Assembly: GCA_028753945.1 (NCBI GenBank)
Contig: JAPNXP010000005.1
Location: 4,712,001 to 4,776,000, forward strand
Direction of reading: 5' to 3'
DNA from: Hexactinellida sp. DTS-2022
Lineage: Eukaryota > Porifera > Hexactinellida
Length of the DNA stretch: 64,000 nt
A model generated the notes under the pieces. That model saw only the letters and a list, made by a program, of their open reading frames with translations. It was not told where the DNA came from and searched no databases. This document shows, piece after piece, positions 16,273-62,645 of this stretch. Within the stretch, counting starts at the first letter, position 1; every line of letters starts with the position of its first letter. Made by a program: the position numbers and the translations under genes.

Positions 16273-16426
16273 TGGTTATAATCGAGTTTAACTCTACATA
16301 ATGATTGCAATTTCTTTGCCCAAAATTTAATCACATAAAAGTTTTATATATAATAACTTAATAAATCCTTCTATTTACGAATTATATAAATTGTTCCAGA
16401 ATTCCAAGAAAATATGAAAAATACTA

Positions 16427-16645
16427 TTAATTAAAATAAATACAATTGTTTTGTGAACGTATCAGTCGCCTCAGGGCACTGTACATTATTCTTAACATCT
16501 ACCATGGACACCTGTCTACGCACTTCTATCATCATATCCACCAAATGGTGGTGATATCTCGCGGATTTTAACACTGAACACAAAGCACTGATAAACACAC
16601 TCCCTTTACTAACGTAACGATAGGAAACATACCCTTTAACAGTAG
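16427..16645 (-). pseudogene. Duplicated 3' end of the NACHT-Roco-caspase gene (p10 fragment)
   Basis: This is nearly identical to 16924-17142: it encodes the last ~70 residues of the caspase domain (VKGYVSYRYVSKGS ... DTFTKQLYLF) with the same stop. It has no start, p20 or catalytic Cys. It joins LRR-derived sequence at 16645 through a shared TAGC. It is a fragment made by local rearrangement and not a gene of its own. Confidence 0.85.
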
Positions 16646-16923
16646 CGGAGTTCAAATTTAAATTCGTGAGCAGTAAGTATAGAATTTTATCTGTTATTGA
16701 GCAGTTTGTTAGACTAAGAGAAGTAAATACACTAAACTTTTTAAGAAAGAACGAAATACTATTAATTAAAATAAATACAATTGTTTTGTGAACGTATCAG
16801 TAGCCTCAGGGCTACTGATACGTTTTCGTGAGCAGTAAGTATAGAATTTTATCTGTTATTGAGCAGTTTGTTAGACTAAGAGAAGTAAATACACTAAACT
16901 TTTTAAGAAAGAACGAAATACTA
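16645..16923 (-). repeat. Shuffled LRR and 3'-end fragments with a 15-bp-arm palindrome
   Basis: 16645-16758 and 16826-16923 copy the LRR-coding stretch at 20511-20625 of the neighbouring gene. Both share two differences from it (TAAGAGAAG for TAAGCGAAG, GAACGAAAT for GAATGAAAT). 16759-16809 copies the gene's 3' end. A perfect inverted repeat (arms 16791-16805 and 16810-16824, 4-base loop) marks a fold-back switch. Confidence 0.85.
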
Positions 16924-16927
16924 TTAA

Positions 16928-19900
16928 TTAAAATAAATACAATTGTTTTGTGAACGTATCAGTAGCCTCAGGGCACTGTACATTATTCTTAACATCTACC
17001 ATGGACACCTGTCTACGCACTTCTATCATCATATCCACCAAATGGTGGTGATATCTCGCGGATTTTAACACTGAACACAAAGCACTGATAAACACACTCC
17101 CTTTACTAACGTAACGATAGGAAACATACCCTTTAACAGTAGCCTGTGCTATGTAGAAATCTGCGAAATTCGCAACCTTCTTCACTTCCTGACGAGCTCG
17201 TGGTGGTGGTGGTGCGTCCACAAATTTTTCCGCAGAAGAAGGGATTTCTGACATATCATCCGTTTGAACTGAGATCTCATCTTGTATCGGTGTATCCGGA
17301 CTAGAGTCAACTAACATGTTTAACCCCTGGTCCTGTCTATGCCCGCGACAAGCTTGGAATATAAACACCTTTGGTTTCCCAGCTAGGCTAGGGCACGCGT
17401 CAGCTGTGAAACTGTTGAGAATCGTTTCTTTCTTGATAGCTTTCATGTCCCGTGTGAGGATACATTCCTCCTCGTCGCCATGAGACATTACGATGCAGAA
17501 GAATGTGTCGAAAGCTGAATGGTCCATACTGCGAATTTCGGTGATATATTTCCGTATTTCAACCTTAGATAAATCTTCATAGGAATAAATTAAAAAATTC
17601 ATATTTTCGAATGTTTGTTTTAAATTTAGGAAGTCTATGTGTGAGCCACGGCGTTTCGAATTGTCATCAAAGTTTTCATTGTGGATAATAAGGCAAATCC
17701 CGCATGGGTTGTTTAGAATTGGGTAGCGACCAAAATCAAGATCTTCTCCAACAGGGATTTCAACAAAGAGCGTCTCAACAATGTAAGATTTAAAGAGGGA
17801 GCAAATATCGCGGTTTTCAGTACCTTTAGATTTCAGTAGCTTATAAAACTTATCTGCCCAGTCCTTACCTTTATTCGGCAGATTGTTTAAGACTGTTTCG
17901 ACTTTCTCTTTCCTTTCCAGAAGATAAATTTGAGATAACTCTTCTCCGTTAATTAAACCTTCTTCGAAAAGTGATTCTAGCATCAAATTTAGGTTTAAAT
18001 TCTGTACAATATGTTCACGGTATTTGTCTATGAAAGAGAGACCAAATTCTTGAGGAATTTGTTTGAACGGAAGAAGCTTATTGAAGAATCTCCAAGCGAA
18101 ATAAGTTTGTTTAACTTTGCAATAGAAATGAGATTCGTGACCAGATTGTTTGAGAAATGTTTCAAAATAGACACAAGGTTTTAATGTTCTTGAAAATGAA
18201 TTGCAAGGACAGTTAAGCACGATTTTCGCAAGTTTCCCAGATAGTATAAGGTCTCGCTGAATTTGTATAATCCATTTTTGTAGAGTGAAGAGAAGAGAAA
18301 ACATTTTAGAGCGTATATATGTATCCGAATATTCTATGTCTTGGAAAATAACACGAATGTAAGGTTGATGTTCTGTGAAATCGAGAATACAACTCAAATT
18401 AGTCTCCCATTGAAATTTAACACAATCGAATGCTAATTTTGGATCATTTTTATCAACCCTCTTACCTTTATGATGAGAGTACTCACTGCATCGATTTAAA
18501 CATAGAGAAAGAAGTGCGAAATAAAACGAGGTTGGTATCTGGTAATCTGGGAAATAAAGGTATATAATTTGGTCTGTTGGATCAGGTTGATAGATAGTTG
18601 ATATATCCTCTTTAAATAAGTATGGGATAAAGTGTTCCGTATTTTTCCCATGTCCGTAGTTAAACAGTAATACACCAAACTCTTCCAATAACTGTGTTAT
18701 TTCAGCTTTAACCTCCGTAAGGTTGTTTCTTTCTAAAATAGCGTTCAATATATTGCCTGTTAAAATAGCCATACTCTGAGCTTTCTCAATATCTTGACGA
18801 AAAGAACTTTGTTTAGATTTACTTTTCGAAATTTTCGGGATTGATTGTATCAGGTTTAAACAGTTCATGGGAGAGACCACGTGGAAAATAATATCCAATA
18901 GGCTTTGTAATGACTTAACTAATATATTTTTCCGGAAAAAGAACACACCAATTGAATGGAAAAGCTGTAGGATTTCAGTGTAATCCTGTGAACAACGTGT
19001 GTTTTCTGCTATTTTTGTTATTTCCGCTTTACCTAATACTGGGTTTGTGCTAGACAATATATTCAATGCGAAATCTAACCACCTGACTGGAAGTGCATGG
19101 TTAAAGCCTATCTCATCTGCATTTGTATGAATGGACTCTCTTAAGCTATCAAATCCCTGTATACTCCTATCTTTTGCGCTCACAATATGGTAGTTCTTAT
19201 CCACTATACATAGACAGTTGCTTTTACGAAATAAAGAGTTTGTGATTAATTTGAAGTTGCCTGCGGCTTTTTCAATAGGATTATCTACCAAATCAGCTTT
19301 GGTGAACACTACAATAATCCTAGACTTGCATTCGTACACTTCAGCTGCTGTAGATTTAGCAACAGAATATATAGTCATTATCCAGTACTGTATGATATCA
19401 AGATGCGTAACCTTACCCTTAATCTCCCTTCTATCCAGCCTGCCTGTTTCCCTCTCCCTATGCACTACTGGCTCCAGTAGATTAACTGAGAGATCTACGG
19501 GAAGTATATACACAGCTCTGGGGGTTAGGAATAGCGAATGCATGCAGAAGAAATAGGATTGACCGGCTAGATCCCATACAGTGAAGAACTCTATTGGTAG
19601 GAGAGCGCGTTGGTTGCTCCAGTGGTCTTGTATGCTTTTGAGTGGGAGATTAGCTAACTGGGCAAATGAAGCCGGGATTGGGGGATCAACTGTGTTATTA
19701 ATATACTCGCTAGGCTCTGGGTCTATTTGTATAGTTGGTAGGAGAGATAAATCCTCGGTAGAAATGGGTGGTGTATTAGTTGGTTCTTCTAGTTGGTGTT
19801 CTATAGGAGGTTGCGTGATTTTGAATTCTTGTTTAGCTTCTAACAAAGGTTCGTTTGTTGGTGTAATATCACTTAATTCCGGTTCAGGTTCTAAATTGAG

Positions 19901-22150
19901 GAAGCTTAATGTAGCATCTGATACCCCCTCATTATCTGTGTTATCAGGTCGCAGTCCTAATTCAATGAAGTTAGTATCTTCAGCTAAGTTAGATAAGTTA
20001 GTCAGGGACTTAACGCGTTTGACAGTTATATGAGCTAGTATGTCGTCACGAGTTTCCTTGAGTCTCTCCTTGAAACTTAGATTTTGACTCCAATCATTAC
20101 TCAGTTCTGTAATAGAAATATCAGTTTTTTCAATAAAGTCTGTCGACATTTCTTTCCCTTCAAATGGTTTGTTTCTTAACGCTTTTAATAAACTAGTTTT
20201 CCCAACCCCCTCTGATCCTACAACCATGAGTCTGAAAAATTTAATATTTTGACTGCCTTCATTACAAGCCAATTGGTACTGGGCCACGAAATCCTCTCCT
20301 CTATTGAGTATCTCCTGTGGTATAGTTTGGTTCGAAATGAATTCTATTTGCGGAAAATCTGACTCGAGTATTATAATTTGTGTTGTGCTTATTGAGTTGT
20401 TGCTTAAGTCTAATTTGCGTAGAAACGATAAGTGCTGTTGGAATGAGTTTCGGATTATAGGGACTGATGAGTCAGTGAGTTTATTACTCTGTAAGTTAAT
20501 GTATTGAATAGCGGAGTTCAAATTTAAATTCGTGAGCAGTAAGTATAGAATTTTATCTGTTATTGAGCAGTTTGTTAGACTAAGCGAAGTAAATACACTA
20601 AACTTTTTAAGAAAGAATGAAATACCTCTTAATAACCAACCTTCCATTGGATAATCTGATAACTGAATAGTATTATCAGGGAAAAGAGTCAACAACTTTT
20701 CCGGTGGTACAAACACTATCTCAACCATAATATTAAGCACAAGAGCGAATGCTCTAATTGAGGTGTGAATAGTCGGTAAATAGAACTTGAAAACATCTTC
20801 ACCAGATTCGTTTATTAACATTGCTTTACTACAGCCTAGAATGAAGTAGTGAGGAGGAATGGATTTCTGCAAAAAAGGCAGAATTAAGTCAAATCTCTCA
20901 ACTGGTTGTTTTCTTGCATCTTTTTTCGTGTGCATTGACGCGAGGAATTCTTGTACAATCAAGCTAATGAAAGTGTATTGTGGTTTCCATTCGTTGTTAA
21001 TCAGTGTGTATGTAGTGCAGTATAGACCAAGTCCGTCAGGGGAAAAGCGCTCATGGAAAGTTGGCAAATCTTCTGAAATAGTGTGGACTGAGTTCACTAG
21101 ACTATCGTAAGCGCTTTTGTACAAATGACATAGAGATTCGTATTTCCAAGTCGATACAATATTTAGACTTAAAATGTTCAATTGATGTGACTTTATGTCG
21201 CCTGTTAAATAGTGATTCACTTGTTGGTTGATTATTTGCACGAGAATATATCTCATTATGTAGTCAACAGATAGGGACTGGTCTAATTCCTCAATAGACA
21301 GGAGCTTAATAATAGTAAACGCGATCAGAGGGAATCGTGCTAGATGTCGGAGATCTGGAAATAAGCTTAAAAACGTGAAAAATAACTGGGAGCCTTGAAG
21401 TAGCTTAGTCGAGGATTTTGTGAAATATTCCATACAGTTTTTGCTTGAAAATCCCAGCACTTCGAGTTGTGTGTAATTCTCATAAGTGGTTTTGAGTTCG
21501 TTATAAAACTGTACACAAGGGCGAGAGAGAAGCAGGATAGAAGATTTTGAGAGAAATTTTCTACCAACAATCTGGTGCAAGGGATTATTAGGAACATAGC
21601 GAAGTAATACGTCATAAGCGTCGATAATAAATATTATATCTTTCCCGTCTCCTAATAGCAGGTGCTCGAAGTAATTAATATAACTAGGATTATCCTTGTG
21701 AGATAGGGAATATACTATTGTGAGAATATCCTTAGCGGATTTAACTTCTGGGAGTTCACAATCTACGTATATCAACATAGTCTTGCCTTCGTTAACCAAG
21801 TCATTAGCCCAAATAGAAGATATGCTACGGGCAAGCCAGGTTTTCCCTGTTCCGATCTGCCCGATAGCTAGATACAACTGGGATTGCTTTCTCAATATAG
21901 CTTCCTCTAAGGTAAATATATTCTCGCGTTCTCTGTCTAGAATAGAGTTGGCATAGGTTGGGTTGCTGGGTAGAATAATACGCATATTCGGTAATGGATT
22001 TTCTATTATGGTTAATGGAGTGTAAATATCGTTGATATTAAATTTGTATTTCGATCTGAGGTTTATTCTAATCTTTGAGTTTGTATGAATGTAGTGTCTG
22101 CTTAGCACGTGCCATGCTTCCAAACGTGTTGTGTCGATAGAGCCAGACAT
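16928..22150 (-). CDS. NACHT-LRR-Roc-COR-CARD-caspase protein, intronless
   Basis: This is one uninterrupted frame of about 1,740 codons. Numbering here counts from the in-frame GTG at 22153; the first ATG is at 22150. NACHT: Walker A GQIGTGKT (98-105), Walker B IIFIIDAYD (173-181). Leucine-rich repeats lie at about 518-600 (LSLTNCSITD, YINLQSNKLTD, LRKLDLSNNSIS). Roc GTPase: P-loop GSEGVGKT (646-653), a ~200-residue acidic/Pro-rich insert, DLAGQ (861-865), TKAD (951-954) and SAK (about 992). A COR-like region spans about 1010-1290. A CARD-like death fold lies at about 1372-1455. Caspase: catalytic-His motif SHG (1557-1559), catalytic-Cys motif QACRG (1600-1604), p10 region GYVSYRY (about 1675). 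All key nucleotide-binding and protease residues are present, so an active sensor-GTPase-protease is plausible. An immune or cell-death role is inferred from the domains only. Confidence 0.9.
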   Translation of the reverse strand: MSGSIDTTRLEAWHVLSRHYIHTNSKIRINLRSKYKFNINDIYTPLTIIENPLPNMRIILPSNPTYANSILDRERENIFTLEEAILRKQSQLYLAIGQIGTGKTWLARSISSIWANDLVNEGKTMLIYVDCELPEVKSAKDILTIVYSLSHKDNPSYINYFEHLLLGDGKDIIFIIDAYDVLLRYVPNNPLHQIVGRKFLSKSSILLLSRPCVQFYNELKTTYENYTQLEVLGFSSKNCMEYFTKSSTKLLQGSQLFFTFLSLFPDLRHLARFPLIAFTIIKLLSIEELDQSLSVDYIMRYILVQIINQQVNHYLTGDIKSHQLNILSLNIVSTWKYESLCHLYKSAYDSLVNSVHTISEDLPTFHERFSPDGLGLYCTTYTLINNEWKPQYTFISLIVQEFLASMHTKKDARKQPVERFDLILPFLQKSIPPHYFILGCSKAMLINESGEDVFKFYLPTIHTSIRAFALVLNIMVEIVFVPPEKLLTLFPDNTIQLSDYPMEGWLLRGISFFLKKFSVFTSLSLTNCSITDKILYLLLTNLNLNSAIQYINLQSNKLTDSSVPIIRNSFQQHLSFLRKLDLSNNSISTTQIIILESDFPQIEFISNQTIPQEILNRGEDFVAQYQLACNEGSQNIKFFRLMVVGSEGVGKTSLLKALRNKPFEGKEMSTDFIEKTDISITELSNDWSQNLSFKERLKETRDDILAHITVKRVKSLTNLSNLAEDTNFIELGLRPDNTDNEGVSDATLSFLNLEPEPELSDITPTNEPLLEAKQEFKITQPPIEHQLEEPTNTPPISTEDLSLLPTIQIDPEPSEYINNTVDPPIPASFAQLANLPLKSIQDHWSNQRALLPIEFFTVWDLAGQSYFFCMHSLFLTPRAVYILPVDLSVNLLEPVVHRERETGRLDRREIKGKVTHLDIIQYWIMTIYSVAKSTAAEVYECKSRIIVVFTKADLVDNPIEKAAGNFKLITNSLFRKSNCLCIVDKNYHIVSAKDRSIQGFDSLRESIHTNADEIGFNHALPVRWLDFALNILSSTNPVLGKAEITKIAENTRCSQDYTEILQLFHSIGVFFFRKNILVKSLQSLLDIIFHVVSPMNCLNLIQSIPKISKSKSKQSSFRQDIEKAQSMAILTGNILNAILERNNLTEVKAEITQLLEEFGVLLFNYGHGKNTEHFIPYLFKEDISTIYQPDPTDQIIYLYFPDYQIPTSFYFALLSLCLNRCSEYSHHKGKRVDKNDPKLAFDCVKFQWETNLSCILDFTEHQPYIRVIFQDIEYSDTYIRSKMFSLLFTLQKWIIQIQRDLILSGKLAKIVLNCPCNSFSRTLKPCVYFETFLKQSGHESHFYCKVKQTYFAWRFFNKLLPFKQIPQEFGLSFIDKYREHIVQNLNLNLMLESLFEEGLINGEELSQIYLLERKEKVETVLNNLPNKGKDWADKFYKLLKSKGTENRDICSLFKSYIVETLFVEIPVGEDLDFGRYPILNNPCGICLIIHNENFDDNSKRRGSHIDFLNLKQTFENMNFLIYSYEDLSKVEIRKYITEIRSMDHSAFDTFFCIVMSHGDEEECILTRDMKAIKKETILNSFTADACPSLAGKPKVFIFQACRGHRQDQGLNMLVDSSPDTPIQDEISVQTDDMSEIPSSAEKFVDAPPPPRARQEVKKVANFADFYIAQATVKGYVSYRYVSKGSVFISALCSVLKSARYHHHLVDMMIEVRRQVSMVDVKNNVQCPEATDTFTKQLYLF

Positions 22151-22472
22151 CACTATCTGTAACTAATGCAATGTATATAATTATTGAATATAAATAAAGT
22201 ACATATAAACACACTAAACTATAAGCCAATTTGGATTTGCAATAATATGATTTAACTCGCTTACATGGTATATGGACTTCCCTAGAGGCAAACAAATCCA
22301 AAATTTATATATCTTTAAGAGCGTGTCGAGCTTCTCAATATAACAATGCATTGTATCAGTTGGTTCAGAGGCCCGAAGTTGCTTTAATAATTTAGGATAA
22401 AGTCTTTAGTAATTGTTTATCTAAGTGATTAGAAATAATTAATTTCGCTATGAAAACAGAAATGAAATAAAA

Positions 22473-24578: not shown

Positions 24579-34969
<10,391 letters not shown>

Positions 34970-37142: not shown

Positions 37143-40100
37143 TTACATAAATTTAGGTTTTTTACTGATGGTCACCTCCATTGGCATTTCATCATAGTTG
37201 AGAGAGTTAGCTCGCTTGCGGTTTTGATCACTTATCTGTACAGCCGGTAATCCGTGTCCCTGAGGCCTAGAAGGCTTCTGTAGATTGTAGCCACAGTTGG
37301 GACAAGGGGAAGAAGGTTGGGAACACTTTTGCTCGTCATAATCTCCAGAAGCAGAAAGCGGTCTCTCAGGGTACTGCTGTGATTCTTTTTTAAATTTCCT
37401 GAATTTCTTGCTTTTGCTAACTATATCTCGCTTCTCTACTATTTTCCCGTACTCGATCCCCTGTTCGATTCCTCGTCCGTATATATTAATGGCCTCTAAA
37501 TAACAGATAAAGCATATAATAAATCTAATTTATAATCACAGTTAATGGAACTAATAAATCTAATATTAATAATTGATTTAAGAAAGTACAAACAATTAGT
37601 ATTGGTAATTAATCAACACCTAATTTCCTCCATAACGACATTACTTGGCAATTGGTATTTCGGAATGAGATTTGACTTAAGCTTGAAGCTACTATCGATT
37701 AGCATAAACCCCTTCAACACCTGTATATTTGGAGACACAATTTCAATAGGAAGGTTGTCCAGAATAGGCATTAAATTGTATCCATTCTCGAACAGTTTGT
37801 TCATTAAATTAACGAAGAAAGGGTCATACAATAGTTTATTGATTTTCTCGAATACACTCTTGATATTACCCAGGATTGGATTAACGGAAAGCAGATGCAA
37901 ATCATGATGGAACCCAAGCACTTTAAGCTTTATAAACAGTTCATCTTTTTCGTCCGTAATATAAACGTTAGACGTAATATGAGTCGCTAAATTCAGTTTC
38001 ATTACAGGAATAAATTTGTTCGATTCATTAACTTTTATGTCCATTGTTAAATTCAGTGATATCCCAGTGACGTCATTATAGAAACCGAGTGAGGGAGCAG
38101 AACATGCGGAGACTGTAATTGTTAAGTTTCTATTTGGGTAGTAACGGTAGAGGGGCGGAAGAATGTATTCAAAGAAGTTGGTGTTTAATAAATGCAATAA
38201 TTTGTCAGTTAATGCGGATGGTTTTAGCGTGTATGGTGATACAATTAAAGTTAACAAACCAGCCTTGTAGTAAGACCATAGTGCGGAGTTAATTGTATAG
38301 TTAGATACGTATACGTATAGCATGTTATTCAGGCTGTTTGGTAGTGAGGGAAAAGTAGCGGGTAAATGCGGGTAAATAGCATTGTTTTGAGGTAGGCTAA
38401 TTGTACCGTTACACTGTAACTCTATGTAGTTGTTTGTATAGACAGGGTCATGAACTAAACGCAGGTCAAATGTTCCTATTTCAAATTTCAGGCGTAAGTT
38501 GATTGAGCTAAGTGTTTGCTTTATTACAGATGGCAAATTATTTCGGAATTCCTTTACAATCAAGTTCTTTCCCCAAGAAACAAGCAAATCGATTATATTC
38601 AGTAACCAAATATCTGGGGAGTTGCCTATAAACTTGATTCCCAATTTCCCAACACTAATTTCAGACTTGAGGCTATCGGTTTCCAACTCCAAATACCCAG
38701 TTGAATTCCGCTTTATTCTGAATGAAATGGAACAGTCTAGATTTACCATATCAAGAAGGACAGTTGGGTTTGCACTAACATGAATAGGGACAACAGCGAC
38801 GAACATTTCCCCACTTATAATGGCTTCTGTTTGGAGGTTAATTGATGTTTTCAAGACAATACTCAATCCTGATTTATTACTTGGCAGAATAGAAAATTCA
38901 CTGAGATTCAGTGAATTAATCTTAATTTTGTGAAGAGAAACATTCAGGTCATAGTCGATAACTTTGTGCTCTTCTTTAAGCTGGAAAGGACCCACATCAG
39001 GGATTTGTATAGACGGAGCACATTTAGCTAATTCCTCTGCGATTCTAGATATCTCAATGAATCCATTTTTTGTGAGAATTAACCCCAAACCTGTCTGTCC
39101 ATTTAAAGGGTGAACGACAGTTAAACAGAAGGAAAGCGAAAAAAGAATAAAACACTTGTACATTTCAAGTTAATTATAATTAGATTTAATTATAATTAAG
39201 ATATCCATTAAGATTGCTATATATAATCAGTGTGTTCCTATAGTCTGTGTGGAGCAGTTTTCAATTACACAATTGAACTCGTGGTATGTCTGAAATCGAC
39301 AAAGTCAAATCATGTGGTTGAACTATTACACATTCTTATAACCCATAAATATATCCATGCAGTTATTTAAAATATAAAATACGAACAAACCTTCATAGAA
39401 AGAAGTCAGTGAGCTAGCAGTTTGATGGAATAGCGGCCATAGATGGAGCGATTCTTGTATGTCATTAGGAGTTCTTTTCCTCTCCTCTAAATAAATAGAT
39501 TTATTAATTAAATATTTAAATAACTTGAAGTATAATGCAGTATTGTCACCCAATTTTTTTTTTTAAAACACTTTTAATTAAACCTGTTGGTTTGACAATT
39601 GTTTTTTGGGAAAAACTGTTTTAATCGACATTGTAATCAAGCTTTCATCCAGGCAAAATTTTATGCGGGCCTAGATTAAGTTTGAGCTCCTCACGCGCGC
39701 ATAAAATACTTAATTTCTATTACTTCCATGTGAGAATCTCTCGATTTTCGCGCGCCTAGAAAAGTTTCCTTTCAAAATTTCTGGATGAAACCCTTACTGT
39801 AATAACGGCGTATATACCTGCTACAAGCGAGGACAGATTAGTCGCCACTCGTTGGAAGCTGGTCCAGAGGTTCCGAATTGCCGCTTCCTTCATAGAGCTC
39901 AGCTGCTGCCGTTCGTAATCTTCCTGCTGAGTGCTGGTAGACACGTCGCTCTGTTCGATTAAAGCGTTTGAAGACTGAGATTCTAGCTCTGTAGAGAAGG
40001 CAGGGAATCCCTGTGTAATGTTCTCAGTCGCTTGTGTTAAATTTACGTTATTAAATGGGTGGATAGATTGGAAATCGAATAAGTGCGGCATTTGTATGTC

Positions 40101-56807: not shown

Positions 56808-57049
56808 GTAATCCCCTATACCCCTCTAAACCACATATCACATTATTTGATAAGTATTTGTAACTGAACGCTATTTACTCAACCTTCCTCGCTTACACAT
56901 TGAGTTATTAATATATTTTTATTAGAAATATACTAAGTCTTGCCGCACTCTTGCGCATTTAGAGGGTGTACCAATTCCAACTTCACTTCTCTTTGATTTA
57001 CAGTACAGTCAGCTATGCTTAAAGTGTGAAAATTTTACAGTACTTACAT

Positions 57050-57208
57050 TAGAACCTCGTTTGTACGAATACCAAGAGACCGTCAAAATGCGTTCGTCTT
57101 ATCCGGAATTTAATCTGTGTCATTTGTATAGAAAATGCTTTGAAGGGGACTGAAATAGTGTTTGTATTAATTAATTAACCGTGTTCGTACCAACGAGGTT
57201 CTACTGTA
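57050..57208. mobile_element. Pogo-like MITE, CAGTAGAACCTCGTTAATACG family
   Basis: It runs from ATTAGAACCTCGTTTGTACG to CGTACCAACGAGGTTCTACTG. It lies between the coiled-coil gene and CENPJ. A CCTGACTGTA-ended fragment at 57225-57308 follows. Confidence 0.65.
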
Positions 57209-61653: not shown

Positions 61654-62645
61654 ATGCAGAATTCAAAACGAAAAAAGCGCTTTAGCTTGACAATTGAAAA
61701 GAAGGAACAAATGGCAGAAACAAACCAGCAAGTAACAATGTTCCGTCCAACCATCCCATCCATACAAAAGCTAACAAGAGACGCCTCTAAGTCAATCGAT
61801 TCAAACGGCCTTCCCCCTACCCCCCTTGGGCATCACATTTCAATGATATACGATGAGACTAGTAAGCGTAGCTGGCTATGGAAATGGACAAACTATATAC
61901 AGGGGTACCAGAAGCGCTGGTTCGTATTGGACGACGGAAAGCTGTCCTACTATAGAAGTAGGGAGGAGATCACACACAGCTGTAGGGGGACTATAAACCT
62001 GTGTGGCGCGTACATAGAGACGATGAACAGAACTTATTTTGTGGTCAGAAACGGGACAAGCCAGGTGTTCCACTTGAAAGCGCCGACTGAAGAGGAGAAG
62101 CAGCAATGGGTGACGTCACTCACTAAGGCGAAGAGTCAAGTGAGGACGAACACTATATAACCATTTTAATATTATAGTAGAACCTCGTTAGTATGAACAT
62201 CAGGGGACCGTTAAATGCGTTCGCCTTTCCGGAATTTGTATTAACGTATATCATTTGTATTGAAAAGGCTTTTAACTGGAATTCGTATTAACCATGTTCG
62301 TACTGACGAGGTTCTACTGTATTAATTAACCTTGTGTTTATAGGCAATAAGAATAATAGAATCTGAGGTAGATGCTGCACCTGGTCGGTACAAAGATATC
62401 GATTCAACTCACCCTGTCGATTCCCCTATTGACAGTCTACAGACCAAGCTATTGGATCTACAGAACAACTATGATAATCTGCAGAGAAAGGGACAGCAGT
62501 TATTGCAAGTTATAAACACCGGTGATACACTTGACCACCTCAGTCCTGTTTTGAAGGAGAAATTCACTCTCTACTCCCTAACGGCCACTTCGCTACTTAA
62601 GAAGGCTAACGAGTATTGTGATAGCGCAGCTGAAATGTTTACCAA
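61654..62645 (+). CDS. OSBP: Oxysterol-binding protein (OSBP), 5' part
   Basis: By family it exchanges sterol and PI4P at ER-Golgi contacts. Exons 61654-62139 and 62344-62645 are in frame. The second ends at a GTGAGT donor, and the sterol-binding domain must lie beyond the window. A poorly conserved basic N terminus (about 70 residues) precedes a PH domain very like OSBP (WLWKWTNYIQGYQKRWFVLD, KLSYYRS, HSCRGTINL, FHLKAPTEEEKQQWVTSL). The second exon has a coiled coil (SLQTKLLDLQNNYDNLQRKG) matching the OSBP central dimerisation region. The intron carries a pogo-like MITE at 62175-62320. Human OSBP and OSBP2 cannot be separated. Confidence 0.9.
62175..62320. mobile_element. Pogo-like MITE, CAGTAGAACCTCGTTAATACG family
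   Basis: It runs from TAGTAGAACCTCGTTAGTATG to CGTACTGACGAGGTTCTACTG in the first OSBP intron. Confidence 0.7.

Follow-up and report, generated by a model that had tools for sequence, protein, structure and literature searches.

A sponge gene carrying NACHT, leucine-rich repeat, Roc, CARD and caspase regions in one open reading frame

We analysed a 64,000-nt stretch of the genome of Hexactinellida sp. DTS-2022 (hereafter 'the window'), which contains no N letters and carries on its minus strand a long gene whose parts are listed in Table 1. The reading frame starts with an ATG at 22150, ends with a stop codon at 16928–16930 and belongs to an open run whose upstream edge lies at 22162, in agreement with the earlier note, which had described a single intronless frame at exactly these positions. 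Base composition gives, by simple arithmetic, ~7% stops per random codon, and an open run of 1,744 codons is therefore far above chance. Residues are numbered here from the GTG at 22153 (residue 1), so that the ATG is residue 2.

Table 1. Features of the gene and of the block directly downstream of it (window coordinates).
Feature	Position	Strand	Basis or remarks
Whole coding sequence, single open frame	16928..22150	minus	1,740 codons from ATG
Short N-terminal stretch without recognised effector domain	21929..22150	minus	No Pfam effector match
NACHT ATPase	21416..21868	minus	Residues 96–246; Pfam E 3.9e-12, 46.7 bits (cut-off 26.7)
Region between NACHT and LRRs	20612..21253	minus	Position only; VQEFLA motif at residues 400–405
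About three LRRs (by eye), NLR/ribonuclease-inhibitor type	20354..20611	minus	Pfam LRR_1 on isolated piece
First part of the Roc G-domain, containing the P-loop GSEGVGKTS (G1)	20054..20248	minus	Pfam Roc E 2.7e-10, best over residues 641–689
Long acidic, proline-rich insert in Roc, G1 to G3	19619..20053	minus	Composition; ends by eye
Roc G-domain, second part, with WDLAGQ (G3), TKAD (G4) and SAK (G5)	19094..19618	minus	LRRK2 Roc match
Probable COR domain	18059..19093	minus	COR-A start by sequence; COR-B by position
CARD	17828..18037	minus	Residues 1373–1442; Pfam E 1.9e-7 (whole protein) and 9.7e-9 (piece), both exceeding the cut-off
Caspase domain with SHG (His 1558), QACRG (Cys 1602), RRGSHID and SYR	16937..17701	minus	Pfam Peptidase_C14
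p20–p10 linker with candidate cleavage Asp residues (LVD, SPD, QTDD, FVD)	17216..17317	minus	Sequence
Rearranged copies of the gene's caspase end and of an LRR segment, outside the frame	16419..16927	minus	Directly downstream of the stop codon

When the whole protein is scanned with Pfam, NACHT, Roc, CARD and Peptidase_C14 all exceed their curated cut-offs, in that order. The leucine-rich repeats (LRRs) and the COR domain that the earlier note had also placed in this series fared less well: the LRRs are few and weak, and COR is matched by neither Pfam nor NCBIfam, with profiles of our own supporting its start. Third-position codon use is broadly alike in seven stretches of the gene, with no sharp break, and broadly resembles that of six frames elsewhere in the window. 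The coding-strand GC skew runs from −0.24 to −0.04 between NACHT and COR and reaches 0.00 in the CARD and +0.05 in the caspase, compared with −0.10 to +0.13 among those six frames; the shift at the CARD–caspase end could reflect separate origins or domain composition.

The front of the protein is that of an NLR, i.e. a NACHT domain followed by LRRs, although the LRR part is short and, in the whole-protein scan, scores under the cut-off (LRR_1, 16.5 bits versus 20.6; 25.1 bits, E 1e-5, on the isolated piece). Weak PDB matches of this part are to the LRRs of NLRP proteins and of ribonuclease inhibitor (E 0.003–0.04), and the best PDB match of the NACHT part is NLRP3 (E 3.2e-9). AAA_22 also matches over NACHT, marginally above its cut-off (27.4 versus 27 bits), and PADLOC yields three matches, all weak, that fall on the two P-loop regions (E 0.0017 to 0.026). 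Of the two NACHT motifs that had been proposed, Walker A (GQIGTGKT, 21839–21862) is intact, whereas the Walker B stretch within IIDAYD reads DAYDV where NLRP3 has DGFDE, a pairing made by eye that the printed alignment arranges otherwise. Given this change, NACHT may or may not hydrolyse ATP. An LLLSRP stretch is also present. The region between NACHT and the LRRs probably consists of winged-helix and helical domains, judging from its position and from the usual anatomy of NLRs.

No Pfam CARD or Death domain precedes NACHT, as it would in the NLRC and NLRD types; the CARD of this protein is C-terminal. The earliest Pfam match is a weak one of P-loop type (PIF1, E 0.14) from residue 72, and PDB matches to NLRP1 start at residue 25. 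Between 22162 and the stop codon of the neighbouring TAF1A gene lie 310 bp, in which the longest minus-strand frame wholly contained has 63 aa, and a second one, of 78 aa, overlaps the gene itself. Judged by frame length, a hidden N-terminal exon encoding a CARD or Death domain is therefore unlikely in this gap.

Behind the LRRs, the Roc G-domain is recognised both by Pfam and by a match to the Roc domain of LRRK2 (E 4.3e-5 overall), a match made up of a G1, a G3 and a G4–G5 stretch that are collinear, only the G3 one being notable by itself (i-Evalue 0.024). All four G motifs named in the earlier note are in place. G1 lies at residue 646 and G3 at residue 860, separated by the acidic, proline-rich insert; the 188 residues from 701 to 888 include 29 acidic, 10 basic and 20 proline residues.

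For COR, a four-sequence profile was not significant (220–251 of 3000 shuffles scored as high), and hhalign gave no support either. We also built profiles from ten bacterial Roco proteins of plasmids, each of which has a Pfam COR-A match. The Roc-COR profile scored 12.6 bits against residues 890–1375 (best single stretch 8.8), compared with a maximum of 6.1 bits in 1000 shuffles, 683 of which gave a score, and of 0.7 bits in 25 control windows from other frames. Its best stretch, residues 987–1075, covers the last portion of Roc together with the beginning of COR-A; a second, weaker stretch (1100–1163) hits the same COR-A start, and because this start fits the query at two places the register of the match is insecure. 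A COR-only profile gave 8.6 bits from residue 1015, with none of 3000 shuffles as high, a positive score reached only after the profile had been enlarged to ten sequences and the start shifted upstream, three starts and three profiles having been tried. With later starts, 2 (from 1022) and 6 (from 1030) of 3000 shuffles scored as high, and the piece from residue 1046 gave 4.8 bits versus a shuffle maximum of 5.9. We regard a COR domain as probable, the profile support being moderate and confined to its start; an alignment to COR-B made by eye is given no weight. Structure prediction without an alignment returned a pLDDT of 40 for the COR region and 34 for CARD–caspase; these low values say nothing about the folds, because the clear caspase region came out equally poor.

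The CARD immediately precedes the caspase domain, as in initiator caspases. A PDB sequence search with the CARD piece returned no natural CARD among its eight matches up to E 10, the best being a designed protein (0.14). The caspase itself is complete with respect to Peptidase_C14 (residues 1485–1739, profile positions 2–233 of 233, E 2.5e-48) and, by sequence, is of the C14A type, with p20 and p10 parts, a His–Cys dyad and an arginine pocket: the histidine of SHG and the cysteine of QACRG, both already recognised in the earlier note, and the arginines preceding GSHID and in SYR all line up with caspase-3 residues that have these roles. The three Asp-bearing sites pointed out before in the p20–p10 linker (LVD, SPD and QTDD) are likewise present, and we add a fourth candidate, KFVD (residues 1643–1646). 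Cleavage at these residues is putative.

The surroundings bear on whether all this is one gene. A tblastn search of the window with the protein found no second copy of the gene, only downstream fragments and chance-level matches. The absence of introns looks ordinary here, since the nearby TAF1A, GPAA1, BPI/LBP and F-box/WD genes, judged over their Pfam spans, are long single frames too; retroposition as the cause of the missing introns was dropped for the same reason. The BPI/LBP-family gene (37616–39169, a single frame whose C-terminal domain matches Pfam at E 2.9e-21) lies ~15 kb upstream of the gene described here, and a laminin-type EGF domain is also among the Pfam matches. This domain, the CARD and the caspase-3-like domain are, from what is established about their families, indicative of an animal. 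The window further contains short repeats, dispersed and bearing stretches similar to AGAACCTCGTT (e.g. 26641–26785, 32415–32566, 34518–34673, 57036–57176 and 62164–62280), which we take to be, perhaps, pogo-like non-autonomous transposons, and an AT-rich tandem repeat (27231–27500) with 24-bp spacing and nine overlapping copies listed.

In the block directly downstream of the stop codon the caspase end recurs over 228 bp with one mismatch, accompanied by two copies of an LRR segment (~105 and ~125 bp, each with three mismatches and one gap) and a short extra copy of the stop region. By eye, two of the junctions have a few bases in common with their sources (GTATTT and GCTA), and one junction is a 15-bp fold-back hairpin, AACGTATCAGTAGCC-CTGA-GGCTACTGATACGTT. 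Pieces of LRR and of caspase p10 are fused in an ORF at 16434–16796, which matches Pfam Peptidase_C14 at E 3.2e-11. This arrangement looks like the product of replication template switching or like a library or assembly artefact.

The long frame itself could be an artefact in which an NLR/Roco gene was mis-joined to a neighbouring caspase gene. Chimeric joins can arise in amplified libraries, the joining of an LRR segment to a caspase end just downstream, fold-back repeat included, is of that kind, and the GC skew of the front differs from that of the CARD–caspase end. A random join, however, preserves the frame one time in three, yet the frame is kept across every domain junction, with the key residues of each domain intact and codon use as even as described; moreover, the window is free of N letters and the chimeric copies fall outside the frame. 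We consider such a mis-assembly distinctly unlikely.

Relatives were sought in several collections. Six short peptide patterns taken from the protein matched 2 stretches in IMG/VR viral contigs and 12 in GTDB genome contigs, none of which was confirmed; such patterns detect close relatives only, here in viral and prokaryotic collections. With tblastn, the Roc-COR part gave no match in phages at E up to 1 and five in plasmids (E 0.7 to 10, none significant alone), four of them to annotated COR-domain proteins and one to an ABC transporter. At E 0.001, no NACHT and no CARD were found in the 10 plasmid Roco proteins. One of these, from Nostoc (L006 469–5076), is an LRR-Roc-COR-CHAT protein, its CHAT domain being a protease of the caspase clan, and one from Niveispirillum (L010) is Roc-COR-TIR. 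Plasmids of Haliscomenobacter hydrossis encode two LRR-Roc-COR proteins (L001 2067–5192 and L005 964–4305) with a C-terminal EAD11 match, over the cut-off in the first and slightly under it in the second; one of the two genes is near brxC and the other adjoins restriction-modification genes.

The lack of relatives in the close-relative search of IMG/VR and GTDB contigs, together with the local rearrangements of the gene's 3' part, would suit a fusion that has no role and is recent, rarely expressed or in decay. Against this stand 1,740 codons free of stops, frameshifts and loss of catalytic residues, and we find a gene of this kind improbable.

As the likelier though not an assured reading, we favour a real fusion, present as one gene in the genome of an animal, in which an NLR front is joined via its LRRs to a Roco core that carries a CARD–caspase as its C-terminal effector. 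The frame, the domain order and the conserved nucleotide-binding and catalytic residues are its observed basis. NACHT-LRR (in NLRs), LRR-Roc-COR (in Rocos) and CARD–caspase (in initiator caspases) are known neighbour pairs, and the order is therefore the one expected from a fusion through a shared LRR edge. The simplest history would be just such a fusion, with the CARD–caspase taking the effector position of Rocos.

How the protein would work can be sketched, and we infer each step of activation, as well as any role in immunity or cell death, from its domains. The resting chain would be folded shut until a signal sensed on the LRR/NACHT side opened it. ATP-driven assembly of NACHT and GTP-controlled dimerisation of Roc-COR would then gather several chains, their CARDs would stack and neighbouring caspase domains would dimerise, probably firing by proximity. 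The caspases could next cut the p20–p10 linkers at Asp (LVD, SPD, QTDD, FVD) and, once cut, act on nearby substrates, with defence or cell death as the outcome. The earlier note spoke of a 'self-contained sensor-GTPase-caspase'. The sequence supports the presence, in one chain, of a sensor, a pair of nucleotide-binding domains and a caspase, and the label itself is a reasonable, if conjectural, way to put it.

The division of labour between the two switches may differ from this sketch. Roc-COR could be the working switch of a Roco-type regulated protease, with NACHT mainly a scaffold or sensor and an output in signalling or remodelling rather than death; G1, G3, G4 and G5 are all present in Roc whereas the NACHT Walker B is altered, and the effector is C-terminal as in Rocos, not N-terminal as in NLRs. 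An intact Walker A and a NACHT score well over the Pfam cut-off speak against so passive a NACHT, and we think this alternative unlikely. We also suggest tentatively, as an idea short of even chances, that the protein is an inflammasome in one chain, its sensor fused to an ATP switch, a GTP switch and an executioner caspase. Two nucleotide checkpoints would then gate the protease with no need of adaptors, and the protein would form a bridge between bacterial LRR-Roc-COR-effector defence proteins and animal NLR signalling. If real and active, the protein would unite the logic of NLRs, Rocos and caspases in one molecule and would allow the gating of a caspase by both an ATP switch and a GTP switch to be studied in a single protein.

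Comparison with known systems places these parts in context. In inflammasomes and the apoptosome, NLRP3, NLRC4 and APAF1 are proteins separate from caspase-1 and caspase-9; there an ATPase of NACHT or related type, a CARD and a caspase cooperate, and here they lie in one chain. Animal Rocos such as LRRK2 and DAPK resemble the protein in its LRRK2-like Roc motifs and in having the effector after COR. That effector is a kinase in LRRK2 and, in the available passages on it, in DAPK, unlike the CARD–caspase found here together with NACHT. Among the titles, abstract openings and passages of the matches listed, a set that left out Yuen 2014 and Hamada 2013, reportedly the two main earlier NLR surveys, the whole domain order in one protein is not described, as the earlier note had supposed. 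The passages seen of PMC11508797, PMC11797021, PMC3196919, PMC4715348 and PMC8242945 mention no NLR–caspase fusion, and none of the sought terms is present in PMC11229196.

The closest parallels come from sponges, sea anemones and bacteria. According to the passages available, the sponge Dysidea avara has 126 genes with NACHT and LRRs, including an NLRX class that, like the gene here, lacks an N-terminal CARD or Death domain, and a figure legend (Figure 2) lists CASc (caspase) and COR among its NLR domains, in no stated protein or order (PMC12909245, 2026). A novel gene of a sea anemone, NG1, combines LRR, Ras/Roc, a low-threshold COR and TIR_2 in one protein; it thus shares with our gene an immune domain in an animal LRR-Roc-COR protein, with TIR in place of CARD–caspase and no NACHT mentioned in the passage concerned (PMC5094078). 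Bacterial conflict proteins of LRR-AP-GTPase(Roc)-COR type carry effectors at the same C-terminal spot as the CARD–caspase here; in the passages concerned these domains are of 24 or more kinds and include caspase (PMC8195603, 2021). The Nostoc and Niveispirillum plasmid Rocos have their CHAT and TIR effectors at this spot too. The caspase described here, in contrast to the bacterial effectors, resembles animal caspases in the caspase-3 alignment, and, relative to the ten plasmid Rocos, only this protein has NACHT and CARD (E 0.001). The claim that nothing comparable exists is therefore too strong: given what is reported in PMC12909245 and PMC8195603, as far as their available passages go, the idea is not wholly new, and the gene presents familiar parts in an unusual combination, which, if real and active, would be an animal counterpart of the bacterial LRR-Roc-COR-protease defence proteins.
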